Part shown: piece by piece, positions 6,225-27,548 of the stretch
Layout: every line of letters starts with the position of its first letter
Position numbering within the stretch: the first letter of the stretch is position 1
Assembly (NCBI RefSeq): GCF_900172345.1
Contig: NZ_FWFY01000019.1
Span: 1-32,888 of the forward strand
From: Limimaricola soesokkakensis
Lineage (GTDB): Bacteria; Pseudomonadota; Alphaproteobacteria; Rhodobacterales; Rhodobacteraceae
Direction: 5' to 3'
Length of the DNA stretch: 32,888 bases
Notes under the pieces: model-generated
What the model saw: only the letters and a program-made list of their open reading frames with translations
Databases searched by the model: none
Told to the model about the DNA's origin: nothing
Position numbers and translations under genes: made by a program

Positions 6225-7274
6225 GACCTTGTTGCACATCTCGGTGAGGGGGATTCACCGAGCGCGGCCTGAGGGTTAGGTCGAGGGTATGCCAAAGCCT
6301 TTCCCGACCCGCTACCGCACGACGAATTGGACCGACTACAACGCGGCGCTGCTTAAGCGCGGTTCGCTGTCGGTCTGGTTCGATCCCGAGATGGTTTGGC
6401 ACGCCGACAAGACCGGCAAGCGTGGCCGACCCGAGACCTTCTCGGACGCTGCGATCCAGACATGCCTCACCCTGAAAGTGCTCTTCGGGCTTCCGCTCCG
6501 GCAGACGGTCGGGCTGGTCGAGAGCCTGATCCAGATGGCGGGGCTCGACTGGCCGGTTCCGGACTATTCGACGCTGTGCCGCCGGCAGGCGCGGATCGCG
6601 GTGCAGGTCCCCTATCGCACATCGGGACAGCCGCTGAACCTGCTGGTCGACAGCACCGGCATCAAGTTCCGGGGTGATGGTGAGTGGCAGGCCCGCAAGC
6701 ATGGCCCGTCACGCCGGAGGCAATGGAGAAAGGTTCATATCGCCATGGACGCTGGCACCGGGGATGTGCGCGCGGTCGCGTTCACCTCGAGCCGCCAAGG
6801 TGACAGCCCCCTGCTGCCGGATCTACTGGCGCAGATCCCGCCGGAGGAGACGATCGGCATGGTCACCGCGGATGGCGCTTACGATACGCGCCGCTGCCAT
6901 GGCGCCATCATCGATCGAGGCGCTGATGCTGTCATACCGATCCGTCGCAATGGCCGTGACTGGAAAGAAGACTGTCCCGCTGCTGCCGCGCGAAATGAGA
7001 TCCTGCGGGCAACCAGGCGCTTGGGCCGGACGCTCTGGAAGAAGTGGACCGGCTATCACGTCCGAAGTCGGGTCGAGGCTATGATGAACTGCCTGAAGCT
7101 CTTCGGCGAGAGGATCATGTCACGAGACCCCGACCGCCAGACCGCCGAGATCCAGATCCGCATCGCCATCATGAACCGCTTCTCGGCCCTTGGCAGGGCC
7201 GAGATCGAAGCCGTCCGCTGAAGAATGCGGAAAAGGGAGCAGTCATGCTCGGCGCTGATTTGCGCAACATCGCC
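6225..7274 (+). mobile_element. Complete IS5-family insertion sequence (~1.05 kb)
   Basis: The element encloses one intact transposase. Its imperfect terminal inverted repeats are GACCTTGTTGCACATCTC at 6225 and, on the other strand, GGCGATGTTGCGCAAATC ending at 7274; both share the TGTTGC-CA core seen in IS903/IS1031-like IS5 elements. The total length fits that group. The flanks belong to two different broken genes and I see no target-site duplication, so the copy marks a recombination or deletion junction and not a simple insertion. Ends are good to a few bases. Confidence 0.8.
6289..7221 (+). CDS. IS5-family transposase
   Basis: A 310-aa DDE transposase. The N-terminal third (MPKPFPTRYRTTNWTDYNAA...) is the DUF4096-like DNA-binding part of this group. 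The catalytic acids appear as D in LLVDSTGIKF, D in VTADGAYDTRR and E in RSRVEAMMNCLKLFGE, the last with the Y/R-x-x-x-E spacing typical of IS5. The length is normal for the group and there is no frameshift, so the element may still be active. The start ATG has AGGTCGAGG upstream. Confidence 0.9.
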   Translation: MPKPFPTRYRTTNWTDYNAALLKRGSLSVWFDPEMVWHADKTGKRGRPETFSDAAIQTCLTLKVLFGLPLRQTVGLVESLIQMAGLDWPVPDYSTLCRRQARIAVQVPYRTSGQPLNLLVDSTGIKFRGDGEWQARKHGPSRRRQWRKVHIAMDAGTGDVRAVAFTSSRQGDSPLLPDLLAQIPPEETIGMVTADGAYDTRRCHGAIIDRGADAVIPIRRNGRDWKEDCPAAAARNEILRATRRLGRTLWKKWTGYHVRSRVEAMMNCLKLFGERIMSRDPDRQTAEIQIRIAIMNRFSALGRAEIEAVR

Positions 7275-12727: not shown

Positions 12728-14095
12728 GTGACGGACCTGCTATCGTTTTTCGGGGCTGCGGATACCGTCACTGGGTCGCGCTACTTGCTCGAGACCGGTG
12801 GACGCCGTGTGCTGATCGACTGCGGCCTGTTCCAAGGCTACAAGAAACTGCGGCAGCGGAACTGGTTGCCGTTTCCGGTCGCCCCTTCCAGCATCGACGC
12901 CGTGCTGCTTACCCACGCGCATCTTGATCACTCGGGGTATCTACCTCGGCTTGCCCGAATGGGATTTTCGGGCCCGGTGTATTGCACGGCTGGGACCCGC
13001 GATCTGTGCCACATCCTGCTGCTCGACAGCGCCTATCTCAACGAGAAGGACGCCGACCGCAGCACCCGCTTGGGATACACGTCCCACCATCCGGCCCGGC
13101 CGCTCTATGACCGGGACGATGCAAAGGCCGCCCTCAAACTGCTTCGGCCGGTAGAGTTCGAGACGCCTCTGCAACTCGACGGATTGCGCGCCCGGTTCAG
13201 GCGGGCCGGTCATATTCTCGGGGCCGCCAGCATCTCGGTCGAAACACCTGATCGGACCATCGTCTTCTCCGGCGACATCGGACGCCACAACGATCTCACG
13301 ATGCCGGACCCTGAGCCTTTCGAACATGCGGACGTTCTTTTGATCGAGTCGACCTATGGCGACCGCCTCCATGATCACTCGGATGCCGAGGCGCAACTCG
13401 CGAACATCATCTCCGGCACGACGGCGCGCGGCGGCACGGTTCTGATCCCGGCGTTCGCGGTCGGTCGAGCGCAGACGCTGCTTTTCATTATCCAACGCCT
13501 CAAGGTTGAAGGCCGGATTGGAAACATACCGGTGTTTCTCGACAGCCCCATGGCGATCGATGCGTCCGAGATCTACAAATCGCATCCGCGCGACCACAAG
13601 ATGGATGTCGGTGGCTTCAAAGAGACATTCGCTGGCGCCACCTACGTGACCTCGGTCGAAGCCTCCAAGGCGCTGACGGTGAATCGCTACCCCAAGGTGA
13701 TCGTATCGGCATCGGGAATGGCCACCGGTGGACGTATCCTGCATCACCTGAGCGCCTATCTTCGCGACTACGACAACACGATCCTATTGCCTGGCTTCCA
13801 GGCAGGGGGCACTCGTGGCGCGCAATTGGCCGCAGGCGCTCAGCAGATCAAGATTCATGGTCAATACGTCCCTGTCGGTGCCGAAGTCGTGCAGATGCAC
13901 CAGCTTTCAGCGCATGCGGATCGAGAGGGCCTGCTTCAATGGCTGGACGGCTTTCGCGAGCCGCCTCGAACGATCTTCGTGACGCATGGGGAGGACACTG
14001 CGTCCGACGCTCTGCGGTTGGCCATAAAGGAGCGGACCGGGACGAACGCGGTTGTGCCTGAGCACTCGCAGTGTGTCGATCTCGACCGGGTCTAA
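12728..14095 (+). CDS. MBL-fold/beta-CASP RNA-specificity-domain hydrolase
   Basis: A 455-aa protein with the full architecture of the CPSF73/beta-CASP ribonuclease group. The metallo-beta-lactamase motif THAHLDHSG (H63, H65, D67, H68) binds two zinc ions; the later motifs RRAGHILGAAS and FSGDIGRHND supply the remaining ligands. The beta-CASP domain follows (STYGDRLHD, then IPAFAVGRAQTLL), then the RNA-specificity motif SASGMATGGRILHHL and QLSAHADREGLLQWL with C-terminal HGE. GTG 12728 is chosen for GGGAGGAGAGCC upstream and because the conserved sequence begins at once; the frame upstream is not conserved. Presumably a cytoplasmic RNase. In related bacteria such genes lie in stress or anaerobic clusters, as here. 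Confidence 0.88.
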   Translation: MTDLLSFFGAADTVTGSRYLLETGGRRVLIDCGLFQGYKKLRQRNWLPFPVAPSSIDAVLLTHAHLDHSGYLPRLARMGFSGPVYCTAGTRDLCHILLLDSAYLNEKDADRSTRLGYTSHHPARPLYDRDDAKAALKLLRPVEFETPLQLDGLRARFRRAGHILGAASISVETPDRTIVFSGDIGRHNDLTMPDPEPFEHADVLLIESTYGDRLHDHSDAEAQLANIISGTTARGGTVLIPAFAVGRAQTLLFIIQRLKVEGRIGNIPVFLDSPMAIDASEIYKSHPRDHKMDVGGFKETFAGATYVTSVEASKALTVNRYPKVIVSASGMATGGRILHHLSAYLRDYDNTILLPGFQAGGTRGAQLAAGAQQIKIHGQYVPVGAEVVQMHQLSAHADREGLLQWLDGFREPPRTIFVTHGEDTASDALRLAIKERTGTNAVVPEHSQCVDLDRV

Positions 14096-17278: not shown

Positions 17279-17448
17279 CGGATCTTCGACGCTACCGCAG
17301 CATCGGTCAGTTTGGGCTCAAAGCCGTCATGCGGCGGTGCGGCAGGCTCGGCCCGCCGTGATCGCACCGCGGCGTGGCGGACTTGGTAGGTTCGACCGTC
17401 GGCATGATGCTGAAGACGTGGCGGGCGTGGGGGATCGGAGGAACCGTC

Positions 17449-18081
17449 ATGCCGACCACAAACCTGCCAGCCATCCGCGCCTGCCGTTCCGCTTGGAACA
17501 AAGGCCGCATCGTTGGTCAAAAGCGTCCGCTCGAACCAAAGCATGTATGGGCGATCCGGGTCCGCCTCGAGATCGCTCAGCGGACCCGCGAGCTTGCGCT
17601 CTTTAATCTTGCGATCGACAGCAAGTTGCGAGGATGCGACCTGGTGAAAATGAAGGTCGCTGACGTGTATGCGGCCGGACAGGTCAAACACCGCGCTTCG
17701 ATCGTCCAGAGCAAAACCCAGAAGCCGGTCAGTTTCGAGATCACCGAGGGGACGCGAAAAGCCATCGCGACTTGGCTCGAAGCTCCGCAGATGGTCGGGT
17801 CGGAGCATCTCTGGCCTGGGCGCTTTCACGAACGCCGGCATATTTCGACAAGGCAATACGCCCGCCTCGTGCGGGACTGAGTGAACTCGATTGGTCTCGA
17901 GCCAAGCGCCTACGGCACCCACTCGATGTGTCGGACCAAGGTAGCGCAGATCTATCGCAAGACTGGCAATCTCCGCGCGGTGCAGCTCCTGCTCGGCCAT
18001 ACGAAGATGGATAGCACGGTGCGCTACCTCGGCGTCGAACTCGAAGATGCGCTCGCCATCGCGGAGGCGGTGGAGCTCTGA
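17449..18081 (+). pseudogene. Tyrosine recombinase inactivated by a nonsense codon
   Basis: Reading through one stop gives a ~210-aa phage-type integrase of normal short length. ATG 17449 has GGAGGAACC upstream. Box I is present (KLRGCDLVKMKVAD, with the catalytic Arg). A TGA at 17878-17880 interrupts YARLVRD/VNSIGLEPSAYGTHSM where relatives that I recall have Trp (TGG). Box II reads HSMCRTK, so the HxxR arginine is Cys (TGT; CGT expected). The rest is intact through LLGHTKMDSTVRYLG with the Tyr nucleophile. The two lesions look like single transitions (G to A and C to T). Both must revert for activity. It borders the recombinase cassette and may be its ancestor's neighbour or an older island scar. 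Confidence 0.8.
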
Positions 18082-18554: not shown

Positions 18555-20153
18555 ATGACGACGAAGACCCGCAAAACCACCCGGAATCAGAAGAAGAGGC
18601 AACAGGTTTTCCACAACCTCCGTGTCCGCGAGAAAGGGAAACAACGCCCCCTCATGGCAAGCGAGGAGGAGCAAATCATCGCCGTGCTTGCTCTCCGGGA
18701 ATGCCCCGAGGCCCTTTCGGTCGAGAGCCTGATCCCCAAGGGCTCTTACCTTGAGCAAATTAGCTCCTACTTCCAGAAGACCGACGTCAGCTATGTGCTG
18801 CCGCTGATCCAGCTCATCATGATCGCGTCCTCCTACCTGACGCAGGGAGGCGCCACCCTCTGGATCCCGGGACTCGGTTGCAAGCGCCCAATCCTCTGGA
18901 CCATGGCTCTGGCCTCGTCCGCGAGTTCGAAGACGCTCGCGACCGACAAGGTGGCTGAGATCCTCCTGCCGGAGGGACCAAACGACATCGTCCGCATGCT
19001 CCCCAAAGCAGGGAGCGACGCGCAGTGGATCGTCGAGGTGAAGGATCACAACGGATCCTACTGGTATCAGGACGAGGCGGGGAAGATGTTCCACATGATC
19101 CTGACGCAGTCGAACTTTGCGCGCATGAAACCCTGGATGCTGGACGCCTACTCGAACAAGCCGATCTCCAATCGGCTCAAGGGGGAGGTGGACAAACTTG
19201 AAATCGAAGACCCCCATTTCACTTTCCTGGGCCTGAGCGTCCGGGAAACCTGGACCAGCGATGTCGACGCGGCGAGCATGCTCGATGGGTTCTGCCAGCG
19301 GTTCAACTACGTGATCGCGGAGCCGCGCGCCGACACCGACATGTTCGACCATTTCCTGTATTTCGCCGGGGAAGAATTCGACGCCCGGAAGAGCGAAATT
19401 CGGGAAGTCTGGCATGCCCTGTGCGCTCAGAAGGGAGCGCTCGAGACCTACCAGTTGGACGATGAAGTTCTGCCGTATCTCGAATGCTGGTGGCGGAGCT
19501 TGCGGAGCAGTTGGGGCGACGGTGTTCTGCCGGGCTCGTTCATCCGGCGCGCGGGCTTCTCGATCCTCAGCTACCTCGTCGTCCTGCAGTTTCTGCTCGG
19601 CAAGGCGAACCGGCCGATCGATCTGGAAACTGCGGAACTGGCGACGAAGTATGCCGAATACCACCTCGAAAGCACGCTCATCATGATGCGCGAGTATGGG
19701 TCCGAGGGACGGAGCCAAGTCGAGAAGGTCGCCCGGGTCCGGGAGTCCCTGCTGGGCAACGGGTCGGCGCAGGTGACGGTCCGGGACATCCAGCGGCGGT
19801 TGAGCAAGAAGCAAAGCAAGGAGCTGACGCGGGATCGCATCGCGCAGATCCTCGGCGCGCTTGATCGGGTGGAAACGTCCAGCGACTTCTCTGACGGCAT
19901 TCTTAGCGAGGTGAAATCTCCAGAGGAAATCCGGCAGTGGAAGGCCGAGTTTCTTGCGCAGCAATATGACGCGGCCCAAGAGCGGGACCGCAAGCAGGAG
20001 GCCTGGCGGAACAGGAAGCGCCTCCAGCGGCTGCTCAAGGCCTACCGTGAGCAAGGGGGTGTTCTGCACTCTGGGGCCCTGGACGCGGATGACACCTGCA
20101 ACGTGGTGCCTCTCGCTGCCAGCCCGGGAGGCACGCGCCAGAAGGCCTCCTGA
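18555..20153 (+). CDS. DUF3987-like primase-helicase-type protein, degenerate P-loop
   Basis: A 532-aa protein. The first 100 residues are basic then helical. The central part resembles DUF3987 ATPase/helicase-like proteins: ILWTMALASSASSKTLA stands where the Walker A loop should be, WYQDEAGKMFHMIL resembles Walker B, and later blocks (FLGLSVRETW, MLDGFCQRFNYV) fit the 'LS.LG..Q...... L..GFLsRF' pattern of the family. The P-loop keeps Lys-Thr but has Ser for the glycines, so ATP hydrolysis is doubtful. The C-terminal 60 residues are a charged coil (AQERDRKQEAWRNRKRLQRLLKAYRE). ATG 18555 has AAGGTG upstream; the longer frame from 18432 is not supported. It heads the recombinase cassette. The family call is moderate; the role in transfer or replication is inferred. 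Confidence 0.55.
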   Translation: MTTKTRKTTRNQKKRQQVFHNLRVREKGKQRPLMASEEEQIIAVLALRECPEALSVESLIPKGSYLEQISSYFQKTDVSYVLPLIQLIMIASSYLTQGGATLWIPGLGCKRPILWTMALASSASSKTLATDKVAEILLPEGPNDIVRMLPKAGSDAQWIVEVKDHNGSYWYQDEAGKMFHMILTQSNFARMKPWMLDAYSNKPISNRLKGEVDKLEIEDPHFTFLGLSVRETWTSDVDAASMLDGFCQRFNYVIAEPRADTDMFDHFLYFAGEEFDARKSEIREVWHALCAQKGALETYQLDDEVLPYLECWWRSLRSSWGDGVLPGSFIRRAGFSILSYLVVLQFLLGKANRPIDLETAELATKYAEYHLESTLIMMREYGSEGRSQVEKVARVRESLLGNGSAQVTVRDIQRRLSKKQSKELTRDRIAQILGALDRVETSSDFSDGILSEVKSPEEIRQWKAEFLAQQYDAAQERDRKQEAWRNRKRLQRLLKAYREQGGVLHSGALDADDTCNVVPLAASPGGTRQKAS

Positions 20154-20269
20154 CGTCGTAGCTGGCGCAAACACGGAGGGGGCAGGGCGATGGGTCTCGC
20201 GCCCCCTTCGAAGCCTCGCCGTTGGCTCGGCGAAAAATATGTGCCGAAAATTTCAGGGTGAACGCTCTG

Positions 20270-20300
20270 GGGCCCAGTTCCTCAAAAAGGAACTGGGCCC
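20270..20300 (+). promoter_or_regulatory. 13-bp hairpin covering the ribosome site of the HTH gene
   Basis: GGGCCCAGTTCCT and AGGAACTGGGCCC pair perfectly around a CAAAA loop; the stem ends at the base before ATG 20301. The only ribosome site, AAGGA, lies in the right arm. The stem is followed by ATGTTTTTATC, so it can also act as an intrinsic terminator whose U-tract is the first codons of the gene. It thus may control HTH expression by both transcription and translation. Confidence 0.6.
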
Positions 20301-20666
20301 ATGTTTTTATCTTCTGAGATCCCCATCACTGTCGCAGACGCCGCACGCCATTTCCAGCTGCGCGAGGCGACTACCCGGAAGCTGCTGGCGGCGGCCGATA
20401 TCCGGCCAGTGGATCACAACCCGCAACGCTATGCATGGGCAGACATCTGGCAGCTCGAAGGTGCCGCCTACGTGTCAGCCGAACTTGCGGCCGAGTTCCA
20501 GAAGCCACTGCTGAAACCGGCAGTAGTCGTCTTTCTCCACTTCAAGCACCTGTCGCCGCGCACGATCACGGACCGGGCGAAGAAGGGTCGCCTTCCTGGC
20601 ATCCTTCTGGGTAGCGACTGGCGTTTCCGGGAGCGCGACATGCGCGCGGCCGCGATCCATGGCTGA
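20301..20666 (+). CDS. HTH protein, excisionase/regulator-like
   Basis: A 121-aa protein with two helix-turn-helix-like units. The first (TVADAARHFQLREATTRKLLAAADIRPVDHNPQRYAWADIWQLEG) has the 'trAA..lgv...tvrrll..g.ip....g...w...dl' layout of MerR/excisionase winged helices. The second (HLSPRTITDRAKKGRLPGILLGSDWRFRERDM) repeats the layout and ends in a basic wing. A tandem two-unit protein can bend DNA as recombination directionality factors do, or repress a promoter. The start ATG lies at the foot of the hairpin at 20270-20300, and the repeats at 20691-20843 directly after the gene are candidate binding sites. Function is inferred from fold and place. Confidence 0.65.
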   Translation: MFLSSEIPITVADAARHFQLREATTRKLLAAADIRPVDHNPQRYAWADIWQLEGAAYVSAELAAEFQKPLLKPAVVVFLHFKHLSPRTITDRAKKGRLPGILLGSDWRFRERDMRAAAIHG

Positions 20667-20690
20667 TCGCTCGGTTCATCACCCGGATCC

Positions 20691-20843
20691 TGCGCCAAAC
20701 GAACTCACCTTGCGCAGCAGAGCATCGTTTGGCGCAGTCTCACCCGAGGGCCCTTCGACATACCGGGGATGTATGGCGAGGGGTGTCCGGCTGAAACCAC
20801 CCTGATTTCCGGCATTTCGCGCCAAACCGGCTGATTTGGCGCA
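20691..20843. repeat. Four TTTGGCGC units in two inverted pairs
   Basis: GCGCCAAA/TTTGGCGC occurs at 20692-20699, 20728-20735, 20819-20826 and 20835-20842. The first pair has 12-bp perfect arms (TGCGCCAAACGA / TCGTTTGGCGCA) over 22 bases; the second has 8-bp arms over 8 bases. The array fills the gap between the HTH gene and the first large recombinase. It is either a set of operators for the HTH protein or a recombination core with paired recombinase sites. Confidence 0.6.
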
Positions 20844-20942
20844 ATGGCTGACCCCGGTCTTCCGCGGCCTGTCCGGGAGCGCGGAGAGGCTGTTGGCCGA
20901 ACCTCTCCGACCTCCCGGACCTCCCCAGAGAAAGACGACAAA

Positions 20943-22766
20943 ATGACCATCACCAATCTCAAGCAGGTGGAAGAATACCTGCCCGAACTGGGCTACGCCC
21001 CGAGTTTTGAAAAGAACCTGCGGGCTTCGATCCGCAAGAGCGCCGAGATCTACAAGACCGAGCTGGAGCGCATTCCGGCAGACCTCGCCGAGTTCGATCG
21101 CAAATGGGGGCGGGGCCGTGTGCGCCACGTGCCTGCGCCGTTCCGCGAGGCTGACAAGTTCCGAACCTGGCGGAAGCACAACCGCATGGTGCTTCGACGC
21201 CTCTCAGGCGCTTCGGTCCCACCCGTCTTGGGCACCGAATGGAGCACGCTGCTCGCCTTCGTGAAGGAGAACCAGGGACCGGGAAAACTGCTCGGCGCCA
21301 ACTCGCACCTCACATTCGGCGTGCTGGCGCGCACGGCCTCGGCGGCCGGTGTCAGGCCGGCGGAGATCACCGATGACTGGGTGAACCGGGTGGCGGTCGG
21401 CCTCGAGACCAGCCAGCGGAAATCTCTCCGCCGCGGGATCGCCCGCTTCAACGCGATAATCGCCAAGCGGACCTGCCGGCCCGAGATGGAGCACCTGTTG
21501 CCTGTGAAGGAAGTGGCGCAGCCCGTCGCTCTCCGGCCCGCCGGCAACCGCTGGCTCCGCAGCGCAGGGCATCCCGGGGCCCGTGTGCTCTGGACGGAGT
21601 TCGACGAGATCATCGCGCGGAAGAAGCATGGCGAGGACGCGCCACTGGCTGGTGCGCCGGTCCAGTTCAAGTCGAACTCCGAGAAGTCCTACGCGGAATC
21701 GCTGAATTGGCTGCTGGGCGGCCTCGTGGCCGAGGACCTGATCGAGGACGGCGCGGACCTCGCCGAGGTCATCACCCATGCCAATCTCGTCACGGCGATA
21801 AACTACTGGATCACGGCACGCCGGGCTCGGGGTCAGAGCATCAAGACCAGCACGCTGCACAACCACGTCTCCCGGCTCGTGCACCTGGCAACGACCTACC
21901 TCGATCTGGCACCCAGGGAAGCGGACCGGCTGCGCAAGCTCCGGAAGAAGCCCACGGTCCGGACGGTCTCGGTCGGGAAGATGTCGCAGACGCGAGAGGA
22001 CTGGATCAAGGAGTTCGATCTCGATCCGGCCAAGCAGGAGCGCGCGCATCGCCTGCCGGAGGATCTGATGGCGCGGGCCGAACGCGTGCTCGCAAAGGAG
22101 CGAGCCGGCAAGAGACTGCGCCCAATCGAGATGATGGATGCCCTGCGCGCCGGGGTTGCAGCGACGATCGCGGCCATTCTCTTCCGGGCCTCGCCCGTGC
22201 GTTCAGCCAACCTGCGCACTCTTCGCATGCGCGGGGAGGGAGCGGAATTCGATCTCACCGCCTTTGAGCGCGATAAGCGTCTGGCGGAGCTACGGTTGTC
22301 GATCCCGGGCGAGCAGGTGAAGAACGAGACGCATATCGACGAAATCGCCGACGACGACTTGGCCCCCGTTCTTACCTGGTATCTGCAGGAAATCCGTCCC
22401 CGCCTGGTCTCGGCTCATCCGTTCAACAAGCCCTATACGGACAGCGATTACCTGTTCCCGTCGACCACCGATCGCCCCATGGAGCGGTCGAACTTCTCGG
22501 AGATGTTCAGGCGCGCTTGCCTCGAAGTGAACTTCGTCATGACCATGCACCAGGCGCGCCATGTCTGCGCCTACTGGATCCTTTCCGTGGATCCGAACGC
22601 ATGGGACGAGGCCGCTGCTCTGCTGGGCGATAACGAGCTCACGGTGCGGAAATACTATGCCTGGATGAACAAGCGGCGGGCCTCGCAGGCTGGCCGGGCC
22701 AAGCTTCAGCAGGCCCGCAAGGGCGTTCGCAAGCACCGTCCGGGAGCGTTCGACAATGCGGCATGA
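20943..22766 (+). CDS. Large tyrosine recombinase (607 aa)
   Basis: A site-specific recombinase longer than phage integrases, because about 400 residues precede the catalytic domain. The catalytic part, from about residue 410, shows box I FRASPVRSANLRTLRM (catalytic Arg, RxxN), a Lys-bearing strand region, box II MHQARHVCAYWIL (HxxRH), and LLGDNELTVRKYYAWMN, where Asn replaces the usual third His/Trp and Tyr is the nucleophile. ATG 20943 is preferred because AGAGAAAG lies upstream; ATG 20844 would add 33 Pro/Arg-rich residues and begins inside the repeat array. The stop overlaps the next recombinase gene by 11 bases, so the two are translationally coupled and may work as a heteromer. Confidence 0.85.
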   Translation: MTITNLKQVEEYLPELGYAPSFEKNLRASIRKSAEIYKTELERIPADLAEFDRKWGRGRVRHVPAPFREADKFRTWRKHNRMVLRRLSGASVPPVLGTEWSTLLAFVKENQGPGKLLGANSHLTFGVLARTASAAGVRPAEITDDWVNRVAVGLETSQRKSLRRGIARFNAIIAKRTCRPEMEHLLPVKEVAQPVALRPAGNRWLRSAGHPGARVLWTEFDEIIARKKHGEDAPLAGAPVQFKSNSEKSYAESLNWLLGGLVAEDLIEDGADLAEVITHANLVTAINYWITARRARGQSIKTSTLHNHVSRLVHLATTYLDLAPREADRLRKLRKKPTVRTVSVGKMSQTREDWIKEFDLDPAKQERAHRLPEDLMARAERVLAKERAGKRLRPIEMMDALRAGVAATIAAILFRASPVRSANLRTLRMRGEGAEFDLTAFERDKRLAELRLSIPGEQVKNETHIDEIADDDLAPVLTWYLQEIRPRLVSAHPFNKPYTDSDYLFPSTTDRPMERSNFSEMFRRACLEVNFVMTMHQARHVCAYWILSVDPNAWDEAAALLGDNELTVRKYYAWMNKRRASQAGRAKLQQARKGVRKHRPGAFDNAA

Positions 22767-24099
22767 CAAGAGAATACTGCCCGCGGATCGGCAGGAGGCC
22801 GCACGGCACCGGTTGCTGGCGAAATGGGATGCGCATCTCGAAGAGCGAGGGGTTCTCCACCCCGCGATGGAGGACTTTCTCAGCTTCGGGAGCCTCCCGC
22901 AGCTCGAGCGACTGCGCGATGCCTTGAACCGGCATCGTCCCAACTCGGTCGGCGGCATGCGACTGGCTCTGCGCCGCAAGCGCTCGGAGAAGTGGCGCAA
23001 GACGCAGCCCGAGCCGGAGAGCCGTGAGAGCCGCATGCCGCGCGTGTCTGCGCGGCTGTCGATGGCGGAGGCGGATTTGCCTCGGCCTTGGAGGAGGGCT
23101 CTCCGGGAGATGCGGACCAGCCGCACCACACTCGATCGTGGGTTGCTGGAGCTCGAAGATCGCACGCCCCCCAGCGCGACCGTGATATGCAATCTCGCCT
23201 CGACGTTGCGGGTTTTCGGTCAAGTCTGCGCGGATCACAGCCTCCCGGTGGAAATGACGCCGAAGACCATCGATCTCTACCGGGCGGCCCGGCATGCCAA
23301 GGGCAACGTCAGCGTCAGCATCGCCAGCCGCCTCAAGGAGCTCCTGACTTTTGCCCGATGGTGCGAGGCCGAGGAAGACGTGATCCGCAAGCTGGTGCGC
23401 CTGCACAAGCTCTACGCCGAGGCGGCAAAGGGGGAGCGCAAGCGGAAGGACATCTGGGCCGCCAAGCATGGAAAGGGCATCGGGGAGGTCTGGGCCAAGG
23501 CCGAAGAGCTGCTCGCGCTCTCCCATGCTGCCCCGGAAGGCTCCATGCTGCGGGCTACCCTGACGCTGGATGCCGCCTGCCTGGCGTTGAGCGTGGTCTG
23601 TCCGCTGCGCTGCGGAGACCTCCATCGCATCGAGATCGGCACCGAGCTGGCCCGGAAGGAGAAGGGGTGGTCGTTGTATATCGAGACGCGAAAGACCGGC
23701 CGGCCTTATCATCGACCGGAGCTTTGGCCTGAGCTGACCCCCTTTCTCGACGCGGTGGTCATGCTCGACCAGTCGGGGCGTGACTTCCAGGACGCCTATG
23801 CGGCCAAGCACGGCACAGCGCTGTTCTCGCGAGACGGGGGCGCAAGCACACCGGCTGTCGACTGGCCGTCCCGCTGCTGGTTCCGCCACTTTGAAATCGG
23901 GGCCCACATCGTCCGCTCGCTGTGGCACAGCCTGATGTTCGAGAGCGAAGATGACGAGCAGTGGATCGCGTTGGCTCTCTGTGGGCAAGGCAATGCCCGG
24001 ACTGCTCAAGCCTACATTCTGGAGGGCAGAAAGAAGCGGGCAGGCCGCCGGGGTCGCGCAAAGATCCGGGCTATCCGGCAGGCAAGTCGCGCAGGCTGA
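22756..24099 (+). CDS. Second tyrosine recombinase-like protein (447 aa)
   Basis: A protein with the layout of a tyrosine recombinase but divergent motifs. An N-terminal basic region (to about 115) precedes a SAM-like core-binding domain (ATVICNLASTLRVFGQVCADH...). The catalytic region has VVCPLRCGDLHRI (box I Arg), HIVRSLWHSLM (HxxR) and CGQGNARTAQAYI, in which the third His/Trp is Asn and Tyr is present. A basic tail (EGRKKRAGRRGRAKIRAIRQASR) ends it. Conserved positions suggest an active enzyme, but less canonical than its upstream partner. Overlapping recombinase genes occur in Tn554-like and RIT elements; here the sizes and order differ from both, as far as I recall. Confidence 0.7.
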   Translation: MRHDKRILPADRQEAARHRLLAKWDAHLEERGVLHPAMEDFLSFGSLPQLERLRDALNRHRPNSVGGMRLALRRKRSEKWRKTQPEPESRESRMPRVSARLSMAEADLPRPWRRALREMRTSRTTLDRGLLELEDRTPPSATVICNLASTLRVFGQVCADHSLPVEMTPKTIDLYRAARHAKGNVSVSIASRLKELLTFARWCEAEEDVIRKLVRLHKLYAEAAKGERKRKDIWAAKHGKGIGEVWAKAEELLALSHAAPEGSMLRATLTLDAACLALSVVCPLRCGDLHRIEIGTELARKEKGWSLYIETRKTGRPYHRPELWPELTPFLDAVVMLDQSGRDFQDAYAAKHGTALFSRDGGASTPAVDWPSRCWFRHFEIGAHIVRSLWHSLMFESEDDEQWIALALCGQGNARTAQAYILEGRKKRAGRRGRAKIRAIRQASRAG

Positions 24100-24161
24100 A
24101 GCTCGTGTGCGTCGAAACGCACAGATCCCGATAGAGCACAGGGGTATCGGAGCTGGCTCGT

Positions 24162-24197
24162 CTTGCAGCGTCTCACTTGGGTGAGAGCCGCTGCAAG
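24162..24197 (+). promoter_or_regulatory. 15-bp hairpin between recombinase 2 and the small helical genes
   Basis: CTTGCAGCG and CGCTGCAAG pair, then TCTCAC and GTGAGA pair around a TTGG loop, with a two-base bulge between the stems. It lies 62 bases after the recombinase stop and about 110 before the next gene. There is no T-run, so it may be an RNA-processing or attenuation element and not a full terminator. Function unknown. Confidence 0.35.
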
Positions 24198-24310
24198 GCA
24201 AGCAGCCCCGAGGAAATCAAAAGGAACACAAACAGCCCCGGCCCGGAAGGAGGAGGAGCCGGTCTTGTCACCTGAGGCATTTCGCCAACGGCACCATACG
24301 GGAGAACATC

Positions 24311-24694
24311 ATGTTCGATATTCCCATGCCAGCCACCGCGCTGCACCGCTTCGCCCAAGAGCACTACGAGCCTATCCAGAACGCCGCCCTGCTGCTCGGA
24401 GGACGCTCCTGGCTGCGGCGCGTGCAGCGTCTGCTCGATCACCTCCAATTCACATCCACTGTGACCGACCATGTGCGGCGTGAAGCGGCCGCCCTGCTCG
24501 AGTTGCTCACTCTGGAGCATGTCCATGACGTGCTTCGTCTTGAGGCTGCCTACTTCGCCGATCTCGATCCGGCTGATCCCCATGTCGAAGAGATCTGTCT
24601 GCTGACGGACCATCTGTCCGACGCACTCGACGAGTGGGCAGCGCCGCAGGAAACCACGGTTGTCGACGACAAGGGGGGGAAAGCCGATGTGTGA
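24311..24694 (+). CDS. Small acidic helical protein of the recombinase cassette
   Basis: A 127-aa protein, almost all helix by composition (FAQEHYEPIQNAALLLGG..., VRREAAALLELLTLEHVHDVLRLEAAYFADLD), acidic, without membrane segment or signal peptide. ATG 24311 has GGGAGA upstream. I do not recognise the family. It follows the two recombinase genes at a distance of 211 bases and overlaps the next gene by eight bases. Tn554-type elements carry a small third gene (tnpC, about 125 aa) after their two recombinases; the length fits, but I see no sequence basis for equating them. Confidence 0.55.
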   Translation: MFDIPMPATALHRFAQEHYEPIQNAALLLGGRSWLRRVQRLLDHLQFTSTVTDHVRREAAALLELLTLEHVHDVLRLEAAYFADLDPADPHVEEICLLTDHLSDALDEWAAPQETTVVDDKGGKADV

Positions 24695-25112
24695 GGACAG
24701 AGAACGACAGGATCCCCTGCGGGAAGCTGCTTTCGAAGCGCTGAGTGCCGCGGACCGGCTGTCCGAGGCCATCGTGGCTGTCGAAGTGGCGCAAGCCCTG
24801 ACACGAGAGCAGCTCGAACAGCTGCGTGACCTGCGGCCGGCGTCCTTGATGCCTTCTCAGATCACCAGAGAGGCTGTCGATGCCCTCCGTGGACTGGCTG
24901 AGAGCCTCGAGCCGAGTATCAAGGGGGAAACCATGACCTGGTTCGTTCATGACGAGCACGACATGTCCGACGGCTACGAGGACTCCGAGACGTCCGATAA
25001 GGGCTTCGCGCTGATCCGGCTCCGCTCGGCGCTGCAAAATCTCGCCGAACGGTTGATGCTCCTGCGCAACTGGCAGGAGGCAGAACGGATTGCCCAGCAA
25101 CTCCGCAGTTGA
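24687..25112 (+). CDS. Small helical protein, last gene of the cassette
   Basis: A 141-aa helical, acidic protein. Two helix-rich blocks (REAAFEALSAADRLSEAIVAVEVAQALTREQLEQL and ALIRLRSALQNLAERLMLLRNWQEAERIAQQL by position) flank an acidic loop with DEHDMSDGYEDSE. ATG 24687 overlaps the stop of the gene before it (ATGTGTGA) and has AAGGGGGGG upstream. The pair with the 127-aa protein suggests a two-subunit accessory complex. No known family is recognised. A hairpin at 25120-25141 follows the stop. Confidence 0.55.
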   Translation: MCEDRERQDPLREAAFEALSAADRLSEAIVAVEVAQALTREQLEQLRDLRPASLMPSQITREAVDALRGLAESLEPSIKGETMTWFVHDEHDMSDGYEDSETSDKGFALIRLRSALQNLAERLMLLRNWQEAERIAQQLRS

Positions 25113-25167: not shown

Positions 25168-27327
25168 CTATGCCGACAGCGCGACGCCGTCACGTGCCGC
25201 CAACTTCGGCCCCTTCCTGCTGCTTTGGGGCGCGGCATTGAAGCGTCGCGCCACCATGCTGAGATCCAGCTGCTCCTGCTCCACATAGGCTTTCAGGGTT
25301 GCGAGCGAGAATCCTTCGGGGAGGTAGTTCACGATGCCGACGTCGTCGTTCCGATGGCCCATCAAGTAGCGCCGGGCTGTATCCGGCACGGCCCGGGTCA
25401 CCATGCTCGAATTGAAGCTGGTCCGCATGGCGTGCAGGTCGCGCCGCTTGTCATAGACCTTCCGGGAGTTGCGGTAGTAATTGAAGTTCTTGGTAAAATT
25501 CGCGGTGAACGTCAGACGTTTCGATTTCGAACGGCTCACTTTGTCGAAGATTCGTTCCTTCCCGAGAGAGCGTTGACGTTCGACGAGCTCGAGGAAGCCA
25601 AGCTCGATCAGCTGGCTGTGGATGGGGATTATCCGGCGAGCATTGTTGCTTTTGAGCGACTGGCCCGTCCCTCGTTCGATGTCGAAGAAGTAGATGCCCT
25701 CATCGCACCGGATGTTCTTCGGCTTCAACTGCAGGATCTCCTCGCTCCGCATTCCATGCAACCGGGCGATCAGCGGCACCCAGAACACATGGTCGTTGAT
25801 CTCCGTCTTGGCCGAGTTCCACTTCTCCGTCTTGAGCAAATCGGCCAGCTCGGTGCTGCTCCATGTCTGCCGCGAAGTTTCGGGAAGCTGCTTTCGCATG
25901 TCGTCGATCACCGCCTCGCCCAAGACGAAAGGCTTGAAGGGATTGTGAGAAATCCGGCCCCTTTCGACGGCATAGTCCAGGGGTGCCGACAGATACTTCT
26001 GATGCCGCTGCAAGGTCCGCGGAGAGATGAGTTTGGTCCCGGCCCTCTCCCGGGCGGCATCAGCCTCCTCGGCGGCAAGACCTCGGGAGTTGATCTCCTT
26101 TTCGACCTTGGCGAGCCGCTTCTTCTGTTCATGTTTCTCATGCTCGATGAACTCGAAGCAGGTGAGGTGACGCCATCGGCTCGAGCGACCATGATTGTTC
26201 GGCAGGCTGCGCAGAAGATCGGTGAACCGCGCCCAGAGTTCACCCGTTGCCTGCGAAAGGCGGGTCTCACCAAAAACATCGTGAACGATCCGTCGTGTCG
26301 ACTGGATCGTATCGGCGTCCTTTTTGAACCGGGCAGCCTTGCCTTCGTCCTCGAACGAGTAAACCCCGTTGGAGCGCAGGCCACGCGACATGTCGTTGAA
26401 CCAGTCGTCCCAAAGGTCGATGACCTTCGGATCGGTTCCGTCCAAGATGCGGGCCGGCGCCAAGAGGCTGGGATCGATTGTCATTTTGAGGCCGGGCCGA
26501 TCGTAGAAGGCAGCTTTCGGCTGGGCCGTCCGTGGAGCGGGCCAATCCAAAGAGCCGTCCGGGTTCTCTTGGGCAGGACGCTGTTCCTCGGCCGTGGCTG
26601 AGGTTAGTCGTGGGCTTTCGCTGCGGGGCTCGGCCTGGTCCTGCGGGATATCGCACGACGCCATCTCTGCCGCGGGCTCCAACGTATCGGGCCGGTCCAC
26701 AGTCGAAGCGTTCGTTGCCGCCGAGCGCGGCATCGAGGACGGCCTTTTCGGCAGGCTCATCCTTTGGAGGGCCTCCGCAAGATAGGGGTCTTGTTCGGTG
26801 AAGACTCCGCGGGCGCGTCGCTCCTTTTCCTCGCTGACCGCGATCATGGCGCGGACCATCTTGTCGGCGAGGATCGCGAAATCCTCGTCTGACTCGTCGA
26901 GGGAGATCCCGAGGCGTGCTGCTGTATCCCGCAGCGGCTGAATTGCCGGGGTCTTGTCGCAGAGAAAGATTGCATCATGCAGCGAGGCGCGGGCGGCGGC
27001 TTCCAGCGCCATGGCGGCTTCGGCCGCTGCGCGCGTGCGCAGGCCGGATAGCGCCCGGAGGCGATCAGAGACTTCAATCTCGCCCTCAATATAGGCGACC
27101 AAGATCTCGGTCATGACATCGGACGGCATGTCCTGCTCCGCGTTGAAGCAGATCTCACTGACGGCGGTCAGTCGCCGGGCGAGCTCTGCGGCATCGCGGG
27201 GGACGTGCGTGCGCAGTGGAAAGCAGAAGAATTCCGGTTTGAATCGGGTTCTGGCGCGGGCCGGGACGCGGCGGCGCCAGTAGTAACCGGTGGATCGACG
27301 TTCGAGATGGGGTTGGTTGATCGCCAT
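25168..27327 (-). CDS. Large tyrosine integrase (719 aa) adjacent to tRNA-Asn
   Basis: A site-specific integrase with a DUF6538-like N-terminal piece (HLERRSTGYYWRRRVPARAR), a long helical and disordered spacer rich in Pro/Ser/Glu (about residues 200-310), a core-binding domain and a C-terminal catalytic domain. Motifs are LHGMRSEEILQLKPKNI (box I Arg), DLHAMRTSFNSSM (HxxR) and LMGHRNDDVGIVNYL (GH plus the Tyr nucleophile). ATG 27327 is preferred with GGAGG upstream; a longer frame to 27408 would run over the tRNA-side sequence. It lies 147 bases from the tRNA-Asn 3' end and points away from it. It probably catalyses integration of the island at the tRNA. Confidence 0.85.
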   Translation of the reverse strand: MAINQPHLERRSTGYYWRRRVPARARTRFKPEFFCFPLRTHVPRDAAELARRLTAVSEICFNAEQDMPSDVMTEILVAYIEGEIEVSDRLRALSGLRTRAAAEAAMALEAAARASLHDAIFLCDKTPAIQPLRDTAARLGISLDESDEDFAILADKMVRAMIAVSEEKERRARGVFTEQDPYLAEALQRMSLPKRPSSMPRSAATNASTVDRPDTLEPAAEMASCDIPQDQAEPRSESPRLTSATAEEQRPAQENPDGSLDWPAPRTAQPKAAFYDRPGLKMTIDPSLLAPARILDGTDPKVIDLWDDWFNDMSRGLRSNGVYSFEDEGKAARFKKDADTIQSTRRIVHDVFGETRLSQATGELWARFTDLLRSLPNNHGRSSRWRHLTCFEFIEHEKHEQKKRLAKVEKEINSRGLAAEEADAARERAGTKLISPRTLQRHQKYLSAPLDYAVERGRISHNPFKPFVLGEAVIDDMRKQLPETSRQTWSSTELADLLKTEKWNSAKTEINDHVFWVPLIARLHGMRSEEILQLKPKNIRCDEGIYFFDIERGTGQSLKSNNARRIIPIHSQLIELGFLELVERQRSLGKERIFDKVSRSKSKRLTFTANFTKNFNYYRNSRKVYDKRRDLHAMRTSFNSSMVTRAVPDTARRYLMGHRNDDVGIVNYLPEGFSLATLKAYVEQEQLDLSMVARRFNAAPQSSRKGPKLAARDGVALSA

Positions 27328-27406: not shown

Positions 27407-27442
27407 AAAACCCCCGGGTCTCTGCCGAGACCCGGGGGTTTT
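27407..27442 (-). terminator. Perfect intrinsic terminator downstream of tRNA-Asn
   Basis: AAAACCCCCGGGTCTC pairs with GAGACCCGGGGGTTTT over 16 bp with a TGCC loop, ending in TTTT on both strands. It starts 31 bases after the tRNA CCA end, so it serves the tRNA transcript on the minus strand. It can also act in the opposite direction and shields the tRNA from the integrase side. Confidence 0.85.
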
Positions 27443-27473: not shown

Positions 27474-27548
27474 TGGCTCCGGCGGTAGGGATCGAACCTA
27501 CGACCAATTGATTAACAGTCAACTGCTCTACCGCTGAGCTACGCCGGA
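27474..27548 (-). tRNA. tRNA-Asn (GTT)
   Basis: The minus strand folds as a complete cloverleaf: acceptor TCCGGCG/CGCCGGA, D stem GCTC/GAGC, anticodon loop CTGTTAA giving GTT for Asn, T stem GTAGG/CCTAC, discriminator G and encoded CCA at 27474-27476. The length of 75 bases with CCA is normal. The integrase gene starts 147 bases from its 3' end and a terminator lies between. Confidence 0.95.

Follow-up and report, generated by a model that had tools for sequence, protein, structure and literature searches.

Six co-directional genes in Limimaricola soesokkakensis, two of which encode overlapping tyrosine recombinases, raise the question of whether they form one mobile unit and on what DNA the two recombinases would act. 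The window, by which we mean the whole analysed stretch of 32,888 nucleotides, is an entire contig (NZ_FWFY01000019.1). According to the original prediction, the six genes may constitute an undescribed transposition or integration module in which the two recombinases act as a heteromer. All six open reading frames are present, with overlaps of 11 bp between the recombinases (22756-22766) and of 8 bp between the last two genes (24687-24694), and the hairpin and the repeat array noted in the gaps were confirmed (Table 1). We tentatively propose, with slightly less than even confidence, that the locus holds a two-enzyme tyrosine-recombination module acting at its own internal site, most likely resolving multimers or cointegrates.

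Table 1. Genes and sequence elements of the window discussed in the text.
Feature	Position	Strand	Remarks
DUF3987-like protein P0001	18555..20153	+	532 aa; Pfam DUF3987 E=1.3e-7
Hairpin directly 5′ of the HTH start codon	20270..20300	+	13-bp arms, 5-nt loop CAAAA
HTH protein P0002, excisionase-like	20301..20666	+	121 aa; HTH_17 E=2.4e-7
HTH-TR1 gap, proposed internal recombination site	20667..20942	+	Four TTTGGCGC half-sites
Proposed core CGACATAC-CGGGGAT-GTATGGCG	20756..20778	+	Imperfect dyad between two half-site pairs; by analogy with the sister site
TR1 (P0003), long tyrosine recombinase	20943..22766	+	607 aa; Phage_integrase E=3.7e-7
TR2, second tyrosine recombinase	22756..24099	+	447 aa; Pfam: no match
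S5, small all-helical protein, optional partner	24311..24694	+	127 aa
S6, small protein, local addition	24687..25112	+	141 aa
Separate tyrosine integrase of the island (IntAsn type)	25168..27327	-	DUF6538 + Phage_integrase
Terminator-like repeat adjoining tRNA-Asn	27407-27442		Perfect inverted repeat
tRNA-Asn, presumed island attachment site	27474..27548	-	ARAGORN, Rfam

Genes of the window

The protein P0001 also matches the PHROG DNA primase (E=2.7e-7) and is perhaps related to replication proteins of the primase/helicase type. On a Roseivivax plasmid, a TR1-TR2 pair is accompanied by a relative with 46.7% identity, and relatives with 22-23% identity occur on nine 3.5-4.2-kb Enterobacterales plasmids, of which one was examined; no ColE1-type RNA was detected at the gathering threshold on the small DUF3987 plasmid. 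Close relatives of TR1 or P0001 on viral contigs were not confirmed. The HTH protein matches the PHROG excisionase (4.6e-5), and the hairpin that precedes its gene is likely to hold the ribosome-binding site inside its 3′ arm, a layout that L057 and L051/L059/L063 share in different letters. The predicted structure of S5 (pLDDT 84) consists of five helices, and its fold has no PDB match at E<=0.001.

The conserved unit

Across 54 loci from alphaproteobacteria inside and outside the family of the window, the conserved order is HTH gene, repeat cluster, TR1 and TR2. In 52 of these loci, TR1 has a second recombinase ORF directly behind it, overlapping or abutting it, where "directly behind" denotes a recombinase-profile frame starting -400 to +60 bp from the end of TR1; the two exceptions are L046, in which the frames overlap more, and L084, which has no second match. 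An HTH gene lies 5′ of TR1 in 45 loci (on the same strand in 43) within a search distance of about 700-900 bp, and none was found near TR1 in the other nine, three of which are at a contig end. A third recombinase-like ORF is present upstream in loci such as L054, L057, L061 and L062.

The other genes have a different distribution. DUF3987 is present in 2/54 loci, S6 was found only in the window and in L064, a locus of the same genus, among 33 loci plus the window, and S5 lies within 6 kb downstream in 18/54 loci and also occurs apart from the pair (TR1 is missing from the stretch in 8 of the 12 S5 loci fetched). The lack of conservation of DUF3987 and S6 leads us to reject the six-gene cassette as one unit; the comparison of neighbourhoods identifies both as local additions and S5 as an optional partner, and it is the adjacent recombinase pair that is kept in many different surroundings.

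The 54 loci were mostly picked for containing TR1, the exceptions being those derived from S5, L033 (from the DUF3987 search) and L034 (from the TR2 search). Four loci that are the same as or near-identical to others (L045, L048, L052 and L102, represented by L108, L113, L099 and L101, respectively) and loci without a TR1-profile frame longer than 1300 bp (such as L044, L056 and L065) are outside the set, and related loci remain in it (L051/L059/L063, L109/L110, and L105/L107 from one strain). Outside the window's family, nine genomes were found and eight were fetched. Whole-genome counts are lower bounds, with only 3-12 first-look candidates scored per genome.

Catalytic residues of TR1 and TR2

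In TR1, the residues R420, K460, H536, R539, H540 and Y572 are invariant in 22/22 aligned rows, and its profile is XerC-like/XerD. The TR2 profile matches TR1, and R285, K313, R387 and Y420 of TR2 are invariant in 21/21 aligned rows; moreover, the best structural match of its predicted structure (pLDDT 86) is Cre (E=4.5e-6). Because of these invariant residues and the Cre-like predicted fold, we consider TR2 to be very probably a real tyrosine recombinase. Tyrosine recombinases usually have H or W at a later position, and TR1 has D or another residue there in most rows. Because of this replacement, and because the usual first histidine is missing in the TR2 rows L057, L061 and L062, recombinase activity is not certain. 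Because the adjacent pair is conserved in many neighbourhoods and both proteins keep the core catalytic residues, joint action of TR1 and TR2, as in the heteromer that was originally predicted, is plausible.

The proposed site between the HTH gene and TR1

The motif GCGCCAAA/TTTGGCGC occurs four times in the HTH-TR1 gap of the window, a number that none of 1000 dinucleotide shuffles reached (maximum 3), and the TTTGGCGC half-sites are located at 20692 (-), 20728 (+), 20819 (-) and 20835 (+). Perfect inverted repeats with arms of at least 11 bp and a spacer of 3-45 are confined in the window to this gap, the hairpin before the HTH gene and the terminator-like repeat. The paired half-sites have no other occurrence in the 3.94-Mb genome, and the core, whose arms are imperfect, has one genomic copy when up to 3 mismatches are allowed. 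The layout of this gap appears similar, in other letters, to the site of a well-sampled sister subfamily.

Sixteen HTH-TR1 gaps of that subfamily share a single 55-bp dyad around an 11-nt centre, in which 89.3% of the cells pair, compared with 24-52% when the dyad is slid. Cells with a double change number 13, against 4.7 +/- 1.6 in shuffled alignments (0/500), although this alignment is also the one that yielded the dyad. Covariation is less clear by two weaker measures: the pairs with a double change (6) were reached by 18 of 500 shuffles, and the further pair types (13) by 33 of 500. Direct repeats with at most 2 mismatches surround the dyad at -36 in 15/15 loci, at -56 in 13, and at +39 and +59 in 12 each, and thus keep a constant spacing of 20 bp to its left and right; L050, the sixteenth row, is outside this scoring because the core search did not succeed there. 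In the 16 loci, blastn-short detected no further copy of the site. The subfamily core is single-copy in three of four relatives' genomes, and the exact core pattern was not found in the fourth, G222. In a scan of 44 gaps, which omits L051 besides the four redundant loci, a perfect inverted repeat is longer than in all 30 shuffles in only 12, so that outside the well-sampled subfamily the site is a reading of patterns.

Ends, copies and relation to mobile elements

No clear terminal repeats were found at the block edges in five locus pairs, although the block may have ends that carry no repeats. The longest direct or inverted edge matches are 6-8 bp, which lies within the shuffle maxima of 8-10 (from single-letter shuffles scored for direct matches only), except in L059, where an inverted match of 10 bp exceeds the shuffle maximum of 9. 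In L112/L113, similarity extends beyond TR2; therefore, that edge is not the edge of the block. In the subfamily examined, the conserved DNA runs from about the HTH promoter mostly to the TR2 stop codon. A transposon with ends was rejected on the edge matches, L059 excepted, and a second site copy as attL/attR was rejected after a search of the 16 loci and of five genomes, in four of which the site is single-copy, G222 having no exact match. The precise ends expected of a transposition or integration module were not clearly found, and the recombination-type site is internal and single-copy where found, which favours resolution, or local recombination of another kind, over transposition.

The most serious alternative, although we regard it as unlikely, is that the genes serve the mobility of an integrative element or transposon akin to Tn554, GInt or SE. 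TR1 and TR2 would then mobilize the block, or an island larger than it, through copy-out or excision, and the gap repeats would be the arm-type sites of an intact attP. A core palindrome, phased direct repeats and an excisionase-like protein characterize phage attachment sites, which the present arrangement recalls. Moreover, copies of the block with 63-89% DNA identity, among them the pairs L109/L110 (86.9%) and L051/L059 (89.2%), lie in contexts that are mostly unrelated. However, the limits of the conserved DNA, the edges that lack clear terminal repeats, the whole and single-copy core, and the presence of another integrase in many islands are at odds with such mobility.

The known mobile elements share parts of the arrangement. 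The original prediction held a long-first pair to be foreign to known types, which is only partly right: according to passages of Van Houdt et al. (2012; PMC3414803), Tn554-related elements pair recombinases of 611-828 aa with others of about 350 aa, and Tn554 and its actinobacterial relatives encode a long and a shorter recombinase side by side in one direction, frequently together with a small third protein. The tandem of TR1 and TR2 has this form, which also favours mobility. DUF6262, which we take to be TnpC, has no match in the window's genome (G000) and occurs in one of 115 genomes of the class; S5 and S6 have no DUF6262 Pfam match, and the TR1 and TR2 profiles have no match at E<=1 in the DUF6262-linked operon of L123, whose proteins are not those of Tn554 itself. 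The module differs from Tn554 in its HTH gene and internal site and in the absence, from the five pairs, of clear terminal repeats that would mark defined ends and a preferred insertion site. RIT elements have three adjacent tyrosine recombinases and terminal inverted repeats, whereas the window has two adjacent recombinases and no clear terminal repeats. GInt (GinABCD) and SE (IntA, Tfp, IntB, Srap), as portrayed in parts of their descriptions (PMC5385486, PMC10214605), likewise combine several tyrosine recombinases with a small partner, but they have three recombinase-like proteins and are located at element ends with attL/attR. Here, two recombinases accompany an internal site that is single-copy where found, and ginABCD at an island end with attL/attR was not observed. 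The order HTH-TR1-TR2-S5 also differs, by description, from IntA-Tfp-IntB-Srap with 13-19-bp terminal motifs, and SE is reported in the relevant passages only from Gammaproteobacteria (PMC10214605).

Neighbouring genes and plasmids

The island of the window has its own integrase, which is convergent with the module and adjoins tRNA-Asn; the search for the left end of the island yielded no more than an incomplete copy of decayed appearance on a different contig (C39). Profile matches of the IntAsn type, some of them partial, occur in 14/54 loci, the window included, and a large serine recombinase lies 3′ of the second tyrosine recombinase in five of the eight loci fetched outside the window's family. 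Because of these two observations, integration seems to be served by a separate enzyme. Chromosomal islands should rarely need multimer resolution, which counts against the resolution reading.

Twelve plasmid records were analysed among 24 matched (7 with TR2, 16 with the TR1 of L078, and 1 from Roseivivax through the DUF3987 search). ParA is present in the fetched stretch of 6 of the 12, accompanied in three of the six by a Rep gene, which favours the resolution reading; this share is a raw count without a background rate, however, the other six records have no ParA in the stretch, and seven of the 12 are related Roseomonas plasmids. A further point against this reading is that the Pukyongiella plasmid (L129) also carries, at a distance of some 5 kb, a Tn3-family transposase with its own recombinase gene.

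Related loci have among their neighbours restriction enzymes of types I and IIG and Hachiman-like HamB, IetS-like and MTES_1575 helicase proteins, and L047 and L055 share a common backbone (88-89%) in which the HTH-TR1-TR2 part has been exchanged. Both observations would suit a recombination platform at which the pair exchanges or captures neighbouring cargo, such as defence genes, at the gap site. We consider this improbable, as the flanks of the pairs compared change at the outer block edges and not at the site, and the gaps seen are short, although a large insertion in the nine loci without an HTH gene would escape scoring.

Discussion

A purely regulatory role of the repeats, as operators or an RNA hairpin controlling the operon, with recombination elsewhere or absent, agrees with the position between HTH and TR1, with hairpins that overlap the presumed ribosome-binding region before HTH or lie just 5′ of TR1 (L047 and L060) and with the covariation, which a hairpin RNA would share, but it is the least probable reading, because direct repeats with a fixed 20-bp spacing to the left and right of a single dyad exceed the requirements of a simple operator or hairpin, and the core catalytic residues of both recombinases are retained.

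For the preferred reading, a module that resolves multimers or cointegrates, we infer DNA binding, a TR1/TR2 heteromer, recombination, and resolution as the purpose. TR1 and TR2 would probably bind the two halves of the palindromic core, and the direct-repeat half-sites flanking this core would serve as accessory sites and set the synapse geometry. The excisionase-like HTH protein would either bend the DNA at the site or act as a repressor of the operon. When a plasmid or an excised island is multimeric or fused, the module would recombine two copies of the site and release monomers. S5 would be an optional helper, and the integration of the window's island would be left to the separate integrase at tRNA-Asn.

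Known resolution systems have comparable features. In the Tn3 family, TnpI/irs and TnpS-TnpT/rst have a site just 5′ of a recombinase gene, with an inverted-repeat core and extra repeats, as passages of the source describe (PMC7157771). Both the subfamily and the window resemble them in layout only; here, two tyrosine recombinases and an HTH gene lie on one strand, direct repeats flank both sides of the core, and a Pfam scan of 17 proteins of the window detected no Tn3-family transposase. Sections of another paper (PMC5357621) describe XerS/difSL, whose recombinase gene lies next to a site that has an 11-bp centre, and XerCD/cer, in which two recombinases use accessory sequences. The module differs from both in its longer enzymes, its location on an element, its own HTH gene and its phased accessory repeats. 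A literature search, covering mostly titles and abstract openings and few subscription papers, returned no description of the module or of a tyrosine-tyrosine-serine arrangement; the module is not described in passages of PMC8138268 and PMC13386836, and terms for recombinases and DUF3987 are absent from the text obtained of a Rhodobacterales paper on new plasmid replicases.

It is possible, though rather doubtful, that the module represents a widespread, undescribed alphaproteobacterial system in which a TR1/TR2 heteromer acts on one large internal site (the 55-bp dyad with 20-bp-phased repeats on both sides) under excisionase-like control, and which in some lineages shares an operon with a large serine recombinase. 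If so, two chemically unrelated recombination machineries would be made together, one integrating the element and the other resolving or remodelling it. According to Van Houdt et al. (2012), in the part of their paper concerned, plasmid-borne tyrosine recombinases that resolve multimers or cointegrates could not be identified (PMC3414803). The module is a concrete, self-contained candidate for such a resolver, with a predicted site, and is testable on a small plasmid. In addition, if such a two-recombinase site diverges in step with its enzymes, it would provide orthogonal recombinase-site pairs, and the links to large serine recombinases and defence islands bear on how islands are kept and moved.

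Conserved gene set and genomic setting

The original prediction described six co-directional frames with overlaps of 11 bp and 8 bp, a hairpin and a repeat array, and all of these are present in the sequence. Pfam assigned the first three proteins to DUF3987, HTH_17 and Phage_integrase, respectively, and gave no match at cut-off for the remaining three. We refer to the second, excisionase-like gene as HTH, to the two tyrosine recombinases as TR1 (607 aa) and TR2 (447 aa), and to the last two genes as S5 and S6.

With the single window protein as the query (E ≤ 1e-8), TR1 was found in at least 26 of 295 Rhodobacteraceae genomes, including that of the window, and a TR1 profile (E ≤ 1e-20) matched at least nine of 384 other genomes in the Alphaproteobacteria sample, all outside the family. 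Gene content across loci was mapped by HMM profiles. A second recombinase frame lies directly 3′ of TR1 in 52 of 54 loci, and HTH lies upstream of TR1 in 45 (same strand in 43). The proposal that all six genes form a unit did not hold: two of the 54 loci have the DUF3987 gene, 18 have S5 no more than 6 kb downstream, and S6 was found, among 33 loci and the window, only in the window and in L064, a locus of the same genus. Because of this low recurrence, the cassette, as judged from gene content, is HTH-TR1-TR2 with an optional S5, and the other genes are local additions. The S5 family is wider (at least 43 of 295 genomes, 73 places); of 12 retrieved S5 loci that do not lie near known TR1 matches, four carry a more divergent TR1-TR2 pair and eight carry none in the stretch. 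A protein of approximately 790 aa recurs in nine of the 54 loci (L099, L113 and seven others), and its L099 copy has no Pfam or PADLOC match. Loci L047 and L055 share an island backbone (88–89% DNA identity) in which the HTH-TR1-TR2 part is swapped for a divergent version, with no HTH detected. At L099, L109, L110, L112 and L113, the neighbours include restriction enzymes, a Hachiman-like HamB, an IetS-like protease, a PLD-like protein and an MTES_1575 helicase; therefore, the module can sit in defence-rich islands.

The window is a complete contig of a 3.94-Mb genome. The gene after the cassette, on the opposite strand, encodes an integrase of approximately 720 aa (DUF6538 and Phage_integrase) that adjoins tRNA-Asn, which places the cassette at the inner side of an island integrase, and a tRNA-Asn island looks like its setting. 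The other end of this island was sought in the genome and not found. A partial copy (86% identical) of the tRNA-Asn end and integrase-side terminator, without the tRNA gene, lies on another contig and is possibly a remnant or the opposite end of a tRNA-Asn island. Profile matches to this integrase type, some partial, occur in 14 of the 54 loci (the window and 13 more).

Coordinates of features in the window and in compared loci
Feature	Locus	Coordinates	Remark
DDE transposase gene	window	6289-7221	IS element
Broken small integrase-like gene	window	17374-18081	upstream of DUF3987 gene; in-frame stop inside (judged by eye)
DUF3987 gene	window	18555-20153 (+)
Hairpin before HTH	window	20270-20300
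Hairpin before HTH	L057	7773-7805
Hairpin before HTH	L059	6819-6841
HTH	window	20301-20666 (+)
HTH-TR1 gap, repeat array	window	20667-20942
Proposed core	window	20756-20778	imperfect dyad CGACATAC-CGGGGAT-GTATGGCG; assigned by analogy
TR1	window	20943-22766 (+)
TR2	window	22756-24099 (+)
S5	window	24311-24694 (+)
S6	window	24687-25112 (+)
Partial tRNA-Asn end	L119 (contig C39)	near 13075-13123
Protein of ~790 aa	L099	6656-9097
Protein of ~790 aa	L113	15673-18081
Extra recombinase-like ORF	L054	4283-6601
Extra recombinase-like ORF	L057	5170-6918
Extra recombinase-like ORF	L061	12224-13432
Extra recombinase-like ORF	L062	12697-14001
Tyrosine pair-then-serine region	L078	9176-12907	~1 kb between TR2 and serine frames
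Tyrosine pair-then-serine region	L080	5604-8311	4-bp overlap
Tyrosine pair-then-serine region	L081	3382-6166	abutting; serine recombinase by similarity only
Tyrosine pair-then-serine region	L083	10354-13233	abutting
Tyrosine pair-then-serine region	L085	5959-8711	4-bp overlap

An internal site between HTH and TR1

Scanning with the L052 protein gave one well-sampled subfamily of 16 loci (its own locus and 15 at 52–78% identity). In this subfamily and its relatives, the conserved DNA begins near the HTH promoter and ends at the stop codon of TR2; the flanks are mostly unrelated, and some pairs have neighbours in common (e.g., L112/L113 and L098/L099). By eye, the HTH promoter region of the subfamily shows a T-run, CTAATT and then a nearly leaderless ATG.

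The gaps of 16 loci (14 of this subfamily, L034 and L050) are highly organised and contain one 55-bp dyad with an 11-bp centre. Direct repeats of the RRGCGACC type stand at −36 (15 of 15 scored), −56 (13), +39 (12) and +59 (12) from the dyad centre, and GGACAC stands at −76 in 11 loci. The two arms of the dyad covary: across these gaps, 89.3% of cells pair, compared with 24–52% when slid, and the 13 double-change cells, compared with 4.7 ± 1.6 after shuffling, were reached by 0 of 500 shuffles; two weaker measures, pairs with a double change (6) and further pair types (13), were reached by 18 and 33 of 500. Long inverted repeats with different letters recur in other subfamilies, with arms of 21 bp in L047, 17 bp in L060, 15 bp in L056, 13 bp in the window and 12 bp in L044 and L040. 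The mean perfect arm over 44 gap regions is 8.8 bp, compared with 6.8 bp when shuffled and 7.3 bp in the coding control; the arms exceed all 30 shuffles in only 12 regions, so this test alone is not decisive for most single gaps.

Four TTTGGCGC half-sites surround the proposed core of the window, and neither the dyad nor the half-site pairs recur elsewhere in the genome. Among four genomes of relatives, the core is present exactly once in three and has no exact match in the fourth; blastn-short found no second copy of the site in the 16 loci. Directly before the HTH start codon, a hairpin with a 5-nt A-rich loop has the same form but different letters in three subfamilies, and it looks like translational control.

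TR1 and TR2 as recombinases

An hhalign comparison pairs the profiles of the two recombinases with a probability of 95.8 (E = 7.5e-9); in the PDB, the profile of TR1 finds XerC-like and XerD chains (E = 2e-8 to 3e-7). All 22 aligned TR1 proteins keep R, K, H, R, H and Y, and all 21 TR2 proteins keep R, K, R and Y; the TR2 proteins of L057, L061 and L062 have another residue in place of the first histidine. Pfam recognises only one of the 21 TR2 proteins (E ≤ 0.01); the first 30 structure matches of the predicted TR2 structure (pLDDT 86) are Cre or Cre-derived. Two Limimaricola plasmid records annotate both proteins as hypothetical. On these alignments and profiles, TR1 and TR2 look like genuine recombinases. 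A later position is H or W as a rule in tyrosine recombinases, and it is D or another residue in most of the 22 TR1 rows; for this reason, recombinase activity is likely rather than certain. At some loci, among them L054, L057, L061 and L062, an extra ORF matching the TR1 profile lies upstream of HTH, and Pfam gave nothing for the three copies tested.

The DUF3987 protein

A DUF3987 relative (46.7% identity) adjoins HTH-TR1-TR2 on a Roseivivax plasmid, and distant relatives (22–23% identity) are carried by nine Enterobacterales plasmids of 3.5–4.2 kb. The 3.9-kb Enterobacter plasmid OW968032.1 (L035) has a DUF3987-like gene as its only large gene besides the relaxase, together with two small ORFs, and its product is a candidate replication protein. 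No ColE1-type RNA reached the Rfam threshold on the small DUF3987 plasmid examined. We infer that a replication-type role is plausible for the DUF3987 protein.

Comparison with known systems

The module has tandem long and shorter recombinases, as do Tn554-related elements, which already include recombinases of 611–828 aa (PMC3414803); unlike Tn554, the window's genome has no DUF6262. The TR1 and TR2 profiles did not match the DUF6262-linked operon of L123. Of the proteins encoded there, two are similar to Phage_integrase, one of them at a score below the cut-off, and Pfam gave nothing for the longest. Small partner proteins are shared with GInts and SEs (PMC5385486, PMC10214605). However, the module has two recombinases instead of the three of GInt and RIT, the known kinds compared, and no element ends were found, unlike in the known elements compared. 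The module lacks some of the described features tested for each of Tn554-related elements, GInts and SEs. The literature searched, mostly titles and abstract openings, gave no description of the module or of a tyrosine-tyrosine-serine arrangement.

Resolution or integration

In an integrated element, each end holds part of the attachment site. The gap site is intact and, in the genomes in which it was found, present in one copy, which argues for resolution. No clear terminal repeats were seen at the block edges of five pairs compared, which argues in the same direction, as does the presence of other integration enzymes, namely the tRNA-Asn integrase or a large serine recombinase. The latter follows the second tyrosine recombinase in five of the eight loci retrieved from other families (Pfam-confirmed in four), and the three genes are probably one operon mixing both chemistries. 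Resolution is also preferred because of layout: the irs and rst sites described for Tn3-family elements likewise lie upstream of the recombinase gene with an inverted core and repeated accessory sites (PMC7157771), a likeness of layout only, and in XerS/difSL the gene adjoins a site that also has an 11-bp centre (PMC5357621).

The plasmid setting points the same way and is suggestive only. ParA is present in the fetched stretch of six of 12 plasmid records, three of which also have a Rep gene, and the order on Pukyongiella plasmid p4 is HTH-TR1-TR2-ParA-partition-Rep. The plasmid-borne module is thus often within a maintenance region, in a set in which seven of the 12 records are related Roseomonas plasmids. 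We consider HTH-TR1-TR2 to be a real and widespread recombination module, and the favoured reading is that of a putative two-enzyme system of the resolution type.
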